A DNA stretch of 58,578 bases from Catenovulum maritimum (GTDB lineage Bacteria; Pseudomonadota; Gammaproteobacteria; Enterobacterales; Alteromonadaceae): the NCBI RefSeq assembly GCF_001050375.1, contig NZ_KQ130503.1, positions 1 to 58,578 of the forward strand, read 5' to 3'. Under the pieces are notes generated by a model. It ran no database searches. It had not been told where the DNA came from and worked only from the letters and a program-made list of their open reading frames with translations. Below, piece by piece: positions 10,240-15,877 of the stretch. The position numbers and the translations under genes were made by a program. Numbering within the stretch: the stretch's first letter is position 1; every line of letters starts with the position of its first letter.

Positions 10240-10824
10240 TTACCAGCCTTTAACACCTTTCATATCCGGTAAATGGTGGGCAATCCCTTTGTGGCAATCT
10301 ATACAGGTTTTTTCACCACTTGCCAGTGCCGTGCTATGCATCGCTGCTGCGCGTTTTCCTTGCAGGGTAAAATCCATAGAATCAAAGTTGTGGCAGTTAC
10401 GACACTCTAATGAGTCGTTTGCTTTTAACCTTGCCCATTCATTCTCTGCTAAATGACGGCGTTTTTCTAAAAATTTGTCGCGAGTTGCTATCGTGCCAAA
10501 TATTTTACCCCAGACTTCTTTAGAGGCTGCCATTTTACGTGCAATTTTGTTTGACCATTCATGTGGCACATGGCAATCAGGACAAGTTGCTCGAACACCT
10601 GAGCGATTAGAGTAATGAATAGTTGGTTGTAACTCTTCAAATACATTATCTCGCATTTCATGGCATCCAACACAAAACTCTTCTGTGTTGGTCATTTCTA
10701 ATGCGGTGTTAAAGCCACCCCAAAAGATAATGCCGGCGATAAAGCCGCCTAGGGCTAAAAAGCCTAGGCTAAAGTGAACGCTGGGGCGATTAAAAGTCCG
10801 CCAGAAGTTTTTCAACCATTTCAT
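10240..10824 (-). CDS. napC: tetraheme c-type cytochrome NapC
   Basis: A 194-residue NapC/NirT-family quinol dehydrogenase that passes electrons from membrane quinol to NapB/NapA in the periplasm. An N-terminal membrane anchor (about residues 18-37) is followed by four CxxCH heme sites: CVGCH 51-55, CPDCH 81-85, CRNCH 141-145 and CIDCH 174-178. Length and heme spacing are those of NapC. It is the last gene of napEFDABC, 3 bp after napB, and a terminator follows. There are no napG/napH genes, so quinol oxidation should depend on NapC alone. Confidence 0.97.
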
Positions 10825-10827
10825 AGC

Positions 10828-11301
10828 TTACTCCTCTTCTTTTTCGGCTTTAATCACCATTTTTTCCATATCAACAAACTCATTTTTCACCACGGGTTTG
10901 GCGTCGGTTTGCGGGACATGGCATTGGTTACAAAAATAGCGTCTTGGTGAAATTTCCGCTAAGAAGTTTCCATCTCTGTCCATGTAGTGAGTAACAGAGA
11001 TCATAGGCGCTTGGCTTTCTTCAGTTCGAGTTCGGTTGTGACAAGCCATACATTTATTAACGTTTAAGTTAATTTCGTAACCTCTAATATTGTGCGGCAC
11101 TAAAGGCGGCTGCATTGGGTAGTTACGAGCTTGCTTAATGTCGTTTTTAATTGGCTTTGCAATTTCTGGCGCTGTCACTTCTTCGTCAATTTCAGCTTTC
11201 AAAATTGGGTTAATTGGATCTGCATTTACTTGTGTCATCACCGTAGAGAAAAACGCAATGGCCATGGTTAAAGTAAAACCGATAAATGTTTTTTGTTTCA
11301 T
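10828..11301 (-). CDS. napB: diheme cytochrome c NapB, small subunit of periplasmic nitrate reductase
   Basis: A 157-residue electron-transfer subunit of NapAB. I place the start at 11301 (MKQKTFIGFT) because AGGAG lies just upstream and this yields a normal signal peptide ending near VNADP; an upstream in-frame ATG would extend into napA. Two heme sites are seen: CMACH 84-88 and CNQCH 124-128. The conserved PPLVPH segment precedes the first heme. It lies 10 bp after the napA stop and 3 bp before napC. It accepts electrons from NapC and reduces the iron-sulfur centre of NapA. Confidence 0.96.
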   Translation of the reverse strand: MKQKTFIGFTLTMAIAFFSTVMTQVNADPINPILKAEIDEEVTAPEIAKPIKNDIKQARNYPMQPPLVPHNIRGYEINLNVNKCMACHNRTRTEESQAPMISVTHYMDRDGNFLAEISPRRYFCNQCHVPQTDAKPVVKNEFVDMEKMVIKAEKEEE

Positions 11302-11311
11302 GACGTTTCTC

Positions 11312-13807
11312 CTAAACTTTTTCAACTTTAACAGCACATTTTTTGAAATCTGTCTGTTTAGAAATTGGATCCGTTGCATCAAGCGTGACTTTGTTAATCA
11401 ACCTTGCCGCATCAAACCATGGTACAAAAACTAGGCCTTGCGGTGGTTTGTTACGTCCACGCGTTTCTACACGAATATTAATATGGCCTCGACGAGAAGT
11501 TAGTTTTACTTCGTCACCTCGGCGTAAGCCGCGTTTTTTAGCATCTTGTGGGTGCATGTAAATTAACGCATCAGGCACGGCTTTATGTAACTCTGGTACA
11601 CGTTGAGTCATAGAGCCACTATGCCAGTGCTCTAGTACTCGGCCAGTGCTTAACCATAGGTCATATTCTTTGTCTGGGACTTCTGGCGCAGCTTCATAAG
11701 GCAAGGCAAATATAATCGCTTTACCGTCTGGTTTGCCGTAAAACTCAAAGCCTTTACCCGCTTTAACATAAGGATCTGAGCCTTCTCTATAGCGCCATTT
11801 AGTTTCGACACCATCCACAACTGGCCAGCGTAAACCACGCTCTTGGTGATATCTGTCGTATGGTGCTAAATCATGGCCATGGTCTCGGCCAAAAGCTGCA
11901 TATTCTTCAAATAAACCTTTTTGAATGTAAAAGCCGAATTCTCTCGCTTCATCATTTAGTCTATCGTCAGGCACTTCGTTTAAGCCGTATGCATCTACGT
12001 TGCCATTTTTAAATAGCACTTCGTATAAGGTTTTTTCCGCTAATTCAGGTTGTTTAGCGATTAAATCTGCGGGCCAAACTTCGTTAATTTTAAAGCGTTT
12101 TGAAAACTCTACCATTTGCCACATGTCAGATTTTGCTTCACCTGGCGCTTTAACTTGTTGGTACCAAGATTGGGTACGTCGCTCTGCATTACCATATGCA
12201 CCTTCTTTTTCTACCCACATTGCTGTTGGTAAAATCAGGTCGCCGGCTTGCGCTGTTACTGTTGGATAGACGTCAGAGACTATGATGAAGTTGTCAGGGT
12301 TACGATAACCTGGGAAGCCTTCTTCATTAATATTTGCTGCTGCTTGCATGTTGTTATTACATTGCACCCAGTAAACATTTAAGTCGCCATCTTTTAATTT
12401 ACGGTTATGTAAAACGGCGTGGTAACCCGGTTTAGGTGGAACTGTGCCTTCTGGCAATTTCCAGATTTTTTCAGCGTAAGCTCTATGCTTAGGATTAGCG
12501 ACGACCATGTCTGCTGGTAATCTATGGCTAAAAGTACCGACTTCACGAGCTGTACCACAAGCTGAAGGCTGACCCGTTAATGAGAATGGGCTGTTACCTG
12601 GCGTAGAGATTTTGCCTGTTAGTAAGTGAATATTATAGATTAGGTTATTTGCCCATACACCACGTGTATGTTGGTTCATACCCATAGTCCATAATGACAT
12701 AACTTTTTTGTTTGGATCTGCGTAGAGTTTTGCTAACTTCTCAAGTTGAGCTTCGCCAACACCTGAAATTTCTGCCGTTTTTTCTGCCGTATATTCGCTC
12801 ACAAATTCTTTGAATTCAGCGAATGTCATTGGCGTTGAGCCTTTTGCATTACCTGCATTTTTAGCCGCTTTTTGTGCTGGATGCTCGTCTCTTAAGCCGT
12901 AACCAATATCCGTGACACCACGACGGAAATTAGTGTGTTTGTTGACAAACTCCCAATTCACTTTGTCTTTTTCAATAATGTAGTTAGCTATGTAGTTTAA
13001 TATGGCTAAATCTGATTGTGGTTCAAAAATAATGGGTAGATCAGCTAAATCAAAGCTTCTGTGCTGGTAAGTTGATAATACGGCAACGTCAACATCTGGA
13101 TTACTTAAACGACGATCGGTTAAGCGAGTCCATAAGATAGGATGCATTTCGGCCATGTTAGAGCCCCATAATACAAACGCATCTGCAGCTTCAAAATCGT
13201 CATAGCAACCCATAGGTTCATCAATACCAAATGTACGCATAAAGCCACCTACAGCAGATGCCATACAGTGTCTCGCATTTGGTTCTAGGTGATTTGTTCT
13301 GAACCCAGCTTTCATTAGTTTAACCGCAGCGTAACCTTCCATAACAGTCCACTGACCTGAGCCAAACATACCTATAGAGCCTGCGCCTTTAGTGTTAAGT
13401 GCGGCTTTATATTTTTCAGCCATTATGTCAAAAGCAGCGTCCCAACTTATTGGAGCAAAGTCGCCATTTTTGTCATACTTGCCATCTTTCATTCTTAGCA
13501 ATGGTTGGGTTAATCTGTCTTCGCCATACATTATCTTTGATAAGAAATAGCCTTTAACGCAGTTTAGCCCTCGGTTTACGGGTGATTTAATATCACCATG
13601 AGTAGCAACGACTTTACCGTTTTTAGTTGCGACATTAATGCTACATCCTGTACCACAAAAACGACATGGCGCTTTGTCCCACTTAAGCTCAGTTGAGCCG
13701 GTACGAGTAATGATATTACTCGCTGTTGCAGGCAGTGTAATGCCTGCTGCTGTTGCTGCAGCACTGGCGGCACTTGCCTTTACAAAACCTCTTCGTGTTA
13801 TATTCAT
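11312..13807 (-). CDS. napA: periplasmic nitrate reductase catalytic subunit NapA
   Basis: An 831-residue Mo-bis-MGD enzyme reducing nitrate to nitrite in the periplasm. The N-terminus carries a twin-arginine signal ([11 protein letters not shown]). The [4Fe-4S] ligands are C48, C51, C55 and C83 (CRFCGTGC...NCVKG). The molybdenum ligand is C181 in [10 protein letters not shown], as in NapA and unlike the Asp of NarG. The C-terminal cofactor-binding domain is present ([23 protein letters not shown]). Full length for the family, with no lesion. It lies 60 bp after napD, whose product binds this signal peptide. Confidence 0.98.
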
Positions 13808-13867: not shown

Positions 13868-14137
13868 TTAAGCTGCGCTTGCATCTTCGTTTTCTGATTC
13901 ATCTATGTATTCGTGATATACAGGGCTAATATCGATAACCTGTTTCACCGCAGCTAGCTGATCTGATAAATTAGCGATTTCTTTATGATTTGCCGCTTCT
14001 AGCGTGACAATAATCTTCGCTTGGCCATCATGCCCATGTACTTCGCAACCATGAATTTGATTACATGAGTCAATCACTGTGACTAAATTTTCTTGTTGGG
14101 TTCTAACAATAAAACTCGCGACATGATATTCAGACAT
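13868..14137 (-). CDS. napD: NapD, chaperone for the NapA signal peptide
   Basis: An 89-residue NapD-family protein with a ferredoxin-like fold. In known systems it binds the twin-arginine leader of NapA in the cytoplasm and prevents export before cofactor insertion. Typical features are the N-terminal YHVASFIV strand, the central CEVHGHDGQAKIIVTLEA segment and the late VIDISPVYHEY. Its ATG overlaps the end of napF by 8 nt, so the two are translationally coupled. Confidence 0.93.
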   Translation of the reverse strand: MSEYHVASFIVRTQQENLVTVIDSCNQIHGCEVHGHDGQAKIIVTLEAANHKEIANLSDQLAAVKQVIDISPVYHEYIDESENEDASAA

Positions 14138-14666
14138 GAGTTTGCTCCTGTAGTGTTTGGTTAGTGGTTTTAAGTTGTGCTAAAGGCTTAAACTGGACGG
14201 CTTGGGTTGGGCATGGAGATACGCATGCACCGCATTGTATACAAGCATCTAAGTTAATTTGTGGTTGCGCTATGGCACCATTAATGTATTTAAACTCTAT
14301 GGCTTGAGGCTCGCAGTTTTCACCACAACTTCTGCAATAAATATTTTTTTGCGCCAAGCAGTTGTCTGTTAGCACTGGAAAAAATTGATTAGTTTTGGGA
14401 TTAGTTTGGTCAATGGCTTTGGTTGGGCAGGCTTTTATACAATCTTCACAAAAGTCACATTCATCCTTTGCAAAATTAAGCTCAGGGTATCCCCCTTCAC
14501 CTTTTTGAATCACTTTAGTTGGACACGCTTCAATGCATTGATTGCATTGAGTGCATTCATTAGTAAATGTATCTTCTGCTGCGCTCCATGGTGGGCGCAT
14601 CACGACTAGTTGTGTTTTTTGCGTTAATCTGCCACGTAGTAAGCTACGTTTTGCCAAATCGACCAT
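14130..14666 (-). CDS. napF: NapF, ferredoxin-type iron-sulfur protein
   Basis: A 178-residue cytoplasmic iron-sulfur protein with several 4Fe-4S ferredoxin motifs: CNQCIEACP, CDFCEDCIKACP, a CRSCGENC-type group and CIQCGACVSPCP. NapF is thought to help mature or reductively activate NapA before export. The N-terminus contains the family's SLLRGRL segment. It overlaps napD by 8 nt and begins 3 bp after napE. Confidence 0.94.
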   Translation of the reverse strand: MVDLAKRSLLRGRLTQKTQLVVMRPPWSAAEDTFTNECTQCNQCIEACPTKVIQKGEGGYPELNFAKDECDFCEDCIKACPTKAIDQTNPKTNQFFPVLTDNCLAQKNIYCRSCGENCEPQAIEFKYINGAIAQPQINLDACIQCGACVSPCPTQAVQFKPLAQLKTTNQTLQEQTHV

Positions 14667-14669
14667 GAT

Positions 14670-14828
14670 CTAAAATCCAGTTGGGCCAAATAATAATTGG
14701 TAAATCCAAATAGAAAATCCATAGCCACTGACTAACAAAATGCTTAATAGTGGAAATAGCACAACTGTGATAAACAAAAATACATTCATTTCTGTTTTTT
14801 TAGTGGTTGAATTAGCTTCGTTGCTCAT
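14670..14828 (-). CDS. napE: NapE, small membrane protein at the head of the nap operon
   Basis: A 52-residue frame with ATG at 14826-14828 and TAG at 14670-14672. Its sequence starts MSNEANSTTKKTEM, then has one transmembrane helix (VFLFITVVLFPLLSILLVSG, about residues 16-35) and ends IWIYQLLFGPTGF. The FPLLSILLV...GYGF..W.YQ.L.GPPG-type pattern and the place directly before napF fit NapE, a short protein of unknown biochemical role found in many nap operons. The short intergenic distance (3 bp to napF) supports translation. It is short enough to be missed by length-filtered gene calling. Confidence 0.92.
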   Translation of the reverse strand: MSNEANSTTKKTEMNVFLFITVVLFPLLSILLVSGYGFSIWIYQLLFGPTGF

Positions 14829-14887
14829 CTTCAGTTCTCACTTTTAAATGTATTCACCCTTGAGCAAATACTTAAGAAATAAAAGTT

Positions 14888-14928
14888 GGTCAACGCTGCG
14901 TCTGCGTTGACCTGTCTCGCGTAAGACA
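14888..14928 (-). promoter_or_regulatory. two abutting hairpins in the nap leader (possible attenuator)
   Basis: In the nap transcript (minus strand) a 5-bp stem UGUCU/AGACA with hexaloop UACGCG (14913-14928) is followed without a gap by a strong 9-bp stem GGUCAACGC/GCGUUGACC with 7-nt loop (14888-14912) and then by AACUUUUAUUU. This lies 60 bp before napE. A small hairpin with a hexaloop, then a terminator-like hairpin with a U-rich tail, is the layout of leaders controlled by ANTAR antiterminators, and an ANTAR protein is encoded divergently. The hexaloop has G at position 4 but U, not the usual A, at position 1. Confidence 0.5.
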
Positions 14929-14985
14929 TCGACATCTCTCAAATTAAATTAGTAGAATTTTTAATTTGTGATTTTCGATGCAGTG

Positions 14986-15027
14986 ATAATGAATCATGAT
15001 GAGGGGCAGTACCTTGATATAGATCAG
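14986..15027 (-). promoter_or_regulatory. FNR-type class II promoter for napEFDABC
   Basis: TTGAT-ATAG-ATCAG at 15014-15027 matches the FNR consensus TTGAT-N4-ATCAA at 9 of 10 defined bases. On the minus strand CATTAT (14986-14991) is a -10-like hexamer. If transcription starts at the A at 14979, the FNR box is centred exactly at -41.5, the class II position. This predicts a 151-nt leader before napE. The geometry is seen in the sequence; anaerobic activation is inferred from the FNR family. Confidence 0.7.
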
Positions 15028-15059
15028 GTTATGAAATTGGTTCGTTTTTAAGTGTCAAA

Positions 15060-15081
15060 AAGCATGATCTAGATCATGCTT
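15060..15081. promoter_or_regulatory. 22-bp perfect palindrome, FNR/CRP-family operator candidate
   Basis: A perfect 22-bp palindrome whose inner 20 bases are AGCATGATCTAGATCATGCT. It contains TGAT-N4-ATCA, the core of FNR-family sites. It is centred 50 bp from the FNR box of the nap promoter (position -91.5 for nap) and about 200 bp upstream of the divergent ANTAR gene, so it could serve either promoter. Confidence 0.6.
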
Positions 15082-15271
15082 ATTCTTAAGCAAAGCCGCT
15101 TTTTAAAAATGCACCACGCAATAGCAGTAAATCTTTAATGTTCATTGGTTGTGCTTAATTTTCGAAAAAAACACGTATTTTGGCTTAAATTAAGCCGATT
15201 TAGGCCTATTTTAAAGTAGGCATGCTTCGTGCTTGTGTAACCAGTAAGCAGCAAAGTAGCGGTTAACGAAA

Positions 15272-15877
15272 ATGCAAAGTAAGTATGAGTCGCATAGAAG
15301 CATAGGACTAAAAGCGCTTTTATTAGTAGAAACGGAAAACTACGACAGAGATCTACGAAATTCATTAGTCACATCTGGTTATGATGTTTATCCAAATATC
15401 ATGAACATGAAGGTTTTAAAAAAAGTAGATGAAATAGAACCTGATGTCATTATTTTAGATATAGATAGGTTAAGTAATGATGACCTACATAGTTTGTTAA
15501 TCATTAGTGAAATGAATCCTAAACCTATGGTCATTTTTACTGAGTTTACAGACGCCAGTATGATAGAAAAAATATTAAGCTCTAAAATTAATGCTTATAT
15601 TGTGGGTGATAAATTACCTCATCATGTTGGTCCAACCGTACAAATTGCGATTGCTCGTTTCAAAGAAGTTGAGTCACTAAAATCAGAACTCACGGAAACC
15701 AAACGTAAACTTGAAGGCAGAAAATGGATTGATAAAGCCAAAGGTTTGTTAATGAGCAATAAAGGCATCAATGAAGATCAAGCTTATCAAGCACTACGTA
15801 AAATGGCTATGGATAGAAGCCAACGCATCGACGAAGTTGCAAAAAATGTGATTAGTTTTATGGAAACCATGGGTTAG
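15272..15877 (+). CDS. ANTAR-domain response regulator, NasT-like antiterminator
   Basis: A 201-residue protein with an N-terminal receiver-like domain (about 14-130; aspartate D63 in VIILDID), a linking helix (about 130-148) and a C-terminal ANTAR RNA-binding domain (about 146-197; KWIDKAKGLLMSNKGINEDQ, then AYQALRKMAM). ANTAR proteins bind paired short hairpins in leader RNAs and block termination; NasT does so for nitrate-assimilation operons. The switch lysine region is unusual (YIVGDKLP). No NasS sensor gene is present. It is transcribed divergently from nap, which suggests a role in nitrate-responsive control. The SD is weak, so the exact start is less certain. Confidence 0.88.
   Translation: MQSKYESHRSIGLKALLLVETENYDRDLRNSLVTSGYDVYPNIMNMKVLKKVDEIEPDVIILDIDRLSNDDLHSLLIISEMNPKPMVIFTEFTDASMIEKILSSKINAYIVGDKLPHHVGPTVQIAIARFKEVESLKSELTETKRKLEGRKWIDKAKGLLMSNKGINEDQAYQALRKMAMDRSQRIDEVAKNVISFMETMG

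Follow-up and report, generated by a model that had tools for sequence, protein, structure and literature searches.

A NasT-like ANTAR protein encoded beside nap in Catenovulum maritimum: an apparently nas-type conserved target and a candidate attenuator in the nap leader

Introduction

Does a NasT-like ANTAR protein encoded next to a periplasmic nitrate reductase operon control that operon by attenuation? The question is raised by a locus of Catenovulum maritimum (Catenovulum group, Alteromonadaceae), where an ANTAR gene lies next to napEFDABC. The DNA analysed here, called the window below, is one 58,578-nucleotide contig (NZ_KQ130503.1) of the 4.55-Mb genome (NCBI RefSeq assembly GCF_001050375.1). 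A sequence-only reading of it had proposed ANTAR-controlled attenuation of nap.

Several known systems serve for comparison. NasS-NasT of the nas operons of Azotobacter, Paracoccus and Pseudomonas shares with our locus a NasT-type ANTAR protein and hexaloop hairpins placed before a terminator; the hairpins of the Paracoccus nasA leader have been probed by mutation (PMC5424462). Here, in contrast, no NasS was found and the leader precedes nap. NasR of Klebsiella, which acts at nasF, is likewise an ANTAR protein and exerts antitermination upon nitrate before nas.

The sequence-only reading called ANTAR control of nap unusual, which is too strong. NasT is needed for full napEDABC expression in Bradyrhizobium diazoefficiens, where NasS is present, and a nasT mutant has napE to napC down by about 5- to 8-fold (PMC6759348). 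Among the down-regulated genes surveyed there, a clear NasT hairpin is given only for the coxS and nirA leaders, and direct action on nap is left open (PMC6759348); at the nosR leader, NasT has been reported to interact directly (PMC6759348; review PMC6712156). Within the open-licence literature we found neither a nap leader described as having an ANTAR motif nor a paper on Catenovulum and nitrate reductase.

Results

The genes concerned are the following.

15272..15877, plus strand: NasT-like ANTAR gene, 201 aa (Pfam ANTAR 68.2 bits, cut-off 27.3)
14670..14828, minus strand: napE (translation)
14130..14666, minus strand: napF (TIGR00402, above cut-off)
13868..14137, minus strand: napD (open reading frame and gene order alone)
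11312..13807, minus strand: napA (TIGR01706, above cut-off)
10828..11382, minus strand: napB, start codon uncertain (NF008609 117.7 bits, under the cut-off of 230)
10240..10824, minus strand: napC (TIGR02161, above cut-off)

The divergent arrangement of the ANTAR gene (15272-15877) and napEFDABC was read correctly from the sequence. This open reading frame is the sole ANTAR match in its genome. The protein is 41-78% identical to NasT-type relatives in alignment; a receiver-like N-terminal domain is matched only below threshold (18 bits, Pfam cut-off 30.2). Klebsiella NasR has its own NIT nitrate sensor, whereas the Catenovulum protein has no NIT match in Pfam. An ANTAR homolog occurs in all eight genomes of the genus, with 54-78% identity in the seven others. 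A terminator-like inverted repeat is found at 15182-15206 (plus strand), 66 nt 5' of the ANTAR start codon and on the same strand.

The absence of an adjacent NasS, also claimed earlier, is borne out: the DNA behind the ANTAR gene at this locus has no NasS-like frame. Among the family loci judged by eye, beside which the family has 77 further ANTAR places, all 21 of L011-L031 have such a frame behind NasT, while L002-L010, which come from the genus and G056, all lack it. A NasS query of the genus genomes returns one NrtA-like protein, an open frame of 461-490 aa in seven of eight and two pieces in G005, plus one additional weak match in G002 (E 3.4e-6). The NrtA-like protein of C. maritimum starts with a signal-like stretch (by eye). 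The nrtA homolog of G005 is split into two reading-frame pieces (L058, L059; G005:C1:352512-353620).

The nap promoter region and leader contain these features, given in the direction of nap transcription.

15064..15077, minus strand: second FNR/CRP-like palindrome, ATGATCTAGATCAT (8/10)
15014..15027, minus strand: FNR-like site, CTGATCTATATCAA (9/10; centre 192 nt ahead of napE)
14829..14979, minus strand: inferred 151-nt nap leader (geometry of the FNR-like site)
14924..14937, minus strand: alternative, weaker P1, AGAU-GUCGAU-GUCU (pick of the covariance model described below, 1.0 bit)
14913..14928, minus strand: candidate P1 hairpin, UGUCU-UACGCG-AGACA, hexaloop with U1 and G4
14888..14912, minus strand: terminator-like hairpin, GGUCAACGC-AGACGCA-GCGUUGACC, 9 bp, 7-nt loop, -14.4 kcal/mol
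14900..14911, minus strand: candidate P2 hairpin, GUC-AACGCA-GAC, hexaloop with A1 and G4, 3 bp
14876..14887, minus strand: AACUUUUAUUUC tract 3' of the terminator-like hairpin

FNR sites usually sit at -41.5; the leader length follows from the position of the FNR-like site and this assumed spacing.

The hexaloop hairpin and the 9-bp terminator-like hairpin noticed at first are both present, and they abut. The U-run begins 3 nt past the terminator stem. Where the sequence-only reading saw no clear partner for the first hairpin, there is one: P2 spans the 5' arm and the loop of the terminator. Because of this overlap P2 and the terminator are mutually exclusive. With the full P1 stem, the gap between P1 and P2 is 1 nt, and the closing pair of P1 is U-A.

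The layout is like that of EutV-eut of Enterococcus faecalis, with P1 folded, a P2 hexaloop in the terminator and 3-bp stems (PMC3369931, PMC8934654). Folded P1 and embedded P2 are the core of the EutV model (PMC8934654), and the structure paper finds three closing pairs to be required, whatever their sequence (PMC8934654). The earlier paper, by Ramesh et al., disagrees on stem sequence: in P1 both loop position 1 and the closing pairs matter, changing the two closing pairs abolishes induction, and shortening the linker to 3 nt greatly reduces it (PMC3369931). By these results the U1, the U-A closing pair and the 1-nt gap of nap count against it as an ANTAR target. The eut system is unlike nap in its linker of 5-12 nt, in having A1 in both loops and in the phosphorylation of EutV by EutW.

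A 172-nt stretch around the element folds at -45 kcal/mol, where shuffles give -29.8 (sd 3.8); z is -4.0, and one of 200 shuffles equals it. A simple terminator scan of 511 nt on both strands is less striking, with 2 sites against 0.5 (sd 0.6) in shuffles. An Rfam scan of the window at gathering thresholds gave no match. We rejected the terminator-like hairpin as a repeat element, since the genome contains it just once even when 3 mismatches are allowed.

What, then, is the conserved target of the ANTAR protein? It appears to be of the nas type, judging from hairpins in nrtA leaders throughout the genus and from the co-occurrence of ANTAR with NrtA. All eight genus genomes have an NrtA/NasS-type protein and a homolog of assimilatory nitrate reductase, the latter each time under the curated cut-off of the model. 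We take the genus nrtA leaders to be nas leaders, an assignment made from nrtA itself. Ahead of nrtA, a hexaloop hairpin is fused to a terminator in 8/8 genomes (terminators by eye), its loop reading A..G.. in six and GAUGAA in two (G002, G003). We examined 30 family nrtA leaders, 7 of them from the genus, out of 117 genomes with NrtA. The hairpin GGC-A..G..-GCC occurs in 27 of them, the exceptions being G003 and G002 (GAUGAA) and G001 (partner GCU). Across 295 genomes of the family, NrtA accompanies ANTAR in 96/107 (odds ratio 69) and NapA does so in 42/107 (odds ratio 2.6, p 0.0004).

The sequence-only reading had named a true target motif at a nas operon elsewhere as something that would refute it. 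This is, at least in part, what the genome shows: a nas-type leader elsewhere in C. maritimum has a textbook motif. These data fit a reading in which the ANTAR protein controls assimilation only. Its gene would then stand beside nap as nitrate genes cluster, nap would be under FNR-type control, and the nap hairpins would terminate or attenuate independently of ANTAR, or would simply give the leader structure. We consider this a serious possibility, somewhat short of even. Both the nrtA leaders and the much stronger ANTAR link with NrtA favour it, as do FNR-like sites (at least 8/10) upstream of nap in 4/4 genus nap leaders; the weaker link with NapA exceeds chance as well and speaks against it.

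The assimilatory targets probably include a further gene in C. agarivorans. In both of its genomes (G002, G003), a GGC-A..G..-GCC hairpin is fused to a terminator before a nirB-like FAD oxidoreductase gene (L161:1501-1558, L162:1501-1556), and this leader is probably a second ANTAR target. Otherwise, a pattern search for further targets returned the nas leaders and, for the most part, chance-like matches.

How closely does nap resemble the nas leaders? P1 is clear in 15 of the 30 family nas leaders, and the other 15 were excluded from the covariance model. Loop position 1 of these P1 hairpins is A in 9, G in 5 and U in 1, and a C-G pair closes the loop in 15/15; G4 was a selection criterion, and its invariance is no evidence. 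In these rows, picked for having a P1 hairpin, the paired positions of P1 covary, with both sides changed in 17 cells where shuffles lead one to expect 4.7. The U at loop position 1 in nap had been held against the proposal. The A1 is indeed missing, but with A, G and U all found there in nas leaders its loss is not fatal.

As in nap, the second hairpin overlaps the terminator in the family nas leaders examined. The nap element differs from the NasS-NasT systems in its P2 stem (GUC/GAC, not GGC/GCC), in the U1 of its first loop and in its loop-to-loop distance. This is 15 nt, against 19 nt in the C. maritimum nas leader; of the 15 modelled leaders, 12 have 24 nt. The C. maritimum nas leader has a linker of 0 nt with its full 10-bp P1 stem, and its U-run follows the stem immediately, unlike that of nap.

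A covariance search for the ANTAR motif had been suggested as a check. With a model built from the family nas leaders, the nap leader was not recovered: it reaches 1.0 bit with filters off, and three noise matches in the same 321 nt lie above it (4.4, 3.9 and 3.6 bits). This weak score is in line with control of assimilation only. Six of the seven genus nas leaders outside the model score 8.2-14.5 bits, and that of G004 gives no match. The model discriminates poorly in this genus, as unrelated stretches score as high as 14.8 bits (within napF of L008). The C. maritimum nas leader (L070, the L056 region) scores 26.2 bits by construction, being part of the model. A second match in the same genome (C2:8344, 21.6 bits) was taken as chance, lying in a coding-looking stretch (by eye).

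NapA is encoded in four of the eight genus genomes, and the other four keep ANTAR without nap. Wherever nap is present (4/4), the ANTAR gene is divergently adjacent to it. Yet the nap leaders of the three sister genomes (G003, G006, G007) have neither terminator nor tandem, a tandem being a P1 followed by a P2 within the terminator. Attenuation of every ANTAR-adjacent nap leader is thereby rejected, and the absence again favours the assimilation-only reading. Relatives that keep the ANTAR gene with no conserved hairpin pair ahead of nap had been named in advance as counting against the proposal; all three sisters are, at least in part, of this kind. C. maritimum itself is represented by one genome. 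In G003 (L004), napF is apparently missing and a napD-like frame directly follows napE (by eye).

The rarity of the arrangement points the other way. NapA genomes number 79, and the upstream DNA was read for 78 (in G055, napA is at the contig's start); napE is recognisable in 56 of these 78 regions. We scanned the napE leaders over 300 nt for terminators with a stem of at least 6 pairs, at least 4 of them G-C, and a loop of at most 12. Only one of the 56 has such a terminator, that of C. maritimum, and this one also has the tandem, a coincidence left unexplained by control of assimilation only. The 22 upstream regions without napE contain some terminators and no tandem.

In 798 kb of the C. 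maritimum genome, P2 occurs in 2 of 147 terminators and the tandem in none; a control in which loop positions 1 and 4 were given different letters yielded 3 tandems in 16 x 147 trials on this genome. In a simulation of 20,000 leaders, each with a terminator drawn at random, 2.3% have P2 alone and 0.07% have P2 with any 5-bp hexaloop P1. The P1 rule was loosened after inspection of the sequence, so the real surprise is smaller than these chance figures.

All sequence scanned holds 364 distinct terminators, with P2 in 26 and the tandem in 9: five nas leaders, two Paenibacillus ANTAR-gene loci, one false positive (L163), where the tip of the terminator itself was taken for P2, and nap. The two Paenibacillus loci are among the sequence chosen through their ANTAR gene. 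With a stricter P1, another scan found the tandem in 9 of 204: nap, both Paenibacillus loci and six nas leaders. Scanning for tandems has low sensitivity, catching only five or six nas leaders, because it requires terminator loops of at most 10 nt and a near P1.

That the nap hairpins have no regulatory role, being a chance GC-rich inverted repeat with a late, non-terminating U-run, is unlikely: the 3-nt offset of the U-run, the modest excess of simple-scan terminator sites over shuffles and the hairpin's absence from three relatives with nap would fit, but the fold z-score of -4.0, nine perfect pairs within the leader on the nap strand, and the rarity of P2 and tandem, both in simulation and among the genome's own terminators, tell against it.

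Discussion

We propose that the ANTAR protein is a NasT without NasS, whose conserved job would be antitermination at the nas (nrtA) leader. At nap, RNA polymerase starting from an FNR-type promoter would transcribe P1 (14913-14928) before it reaches the terminator (14888-14912). The ANTAR protein in its free form, nitrate being the presumed signal, would bind P1 and stabilise P2 (14900-14911). P2 would consume the 5' arm of the terminator and allow readthrough into napEFDABC.

Judged from its sequence, the nap leader is plausibly a switch that the adjacent RNA-binding regulator could operate. In favour of the original proposal, ANTAR-controlled attenuation of nap, there is the tandem with P2 in the terminator; against it stand a conserved target that appears to be nas, sister nap leaders devoid of the element, the retention of ANTAR in four genomes without nap, the low covariance score, the departures of P1 and the late U-run. 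For an orphan NasT with a conserved antitermination role at nas, and in C. maritimum an ANTAR-type attenuator at nap in addition, we see the case as evenly poised. The nap leader is a credible second ANTAR target, perhaps a recent one and so far only in this genome, and we would put this at around half. The fuller picture, in which a NasT lacking NasS couples nas and nap by attenuation, through a nap attenuator recently gained in one lineage behind an FNR-driven promoter, is tentative and rather doubtful.

If true, an RNA attenuator would apparently have been gained recently, and with it would come a direct view of the recruitment of an ANTAR target. It would also show, in the leader itself, a motif through which ANTAR could control nap directly, the point left open in Bradyrhizobium. 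Whatever the result for nap, the genus keeps NasT and nas-type leaders and no NasS was found there, which makes nitrate sensing by an orphan NasT testable.

Two observations concern other genera. In Paenibacillus massiliensis (L043, L044; minus strand), a tandem hexaloop-terminator leader lies about 4.1 kb from the locus start and about 6 kb from the ANTAR gene. In Photobacterium (L041, L042), a GGC-ACCGAA-GCC hairpin near 10705 (plus strand) overlaps a terminator just 3' of the ANTAR gene.
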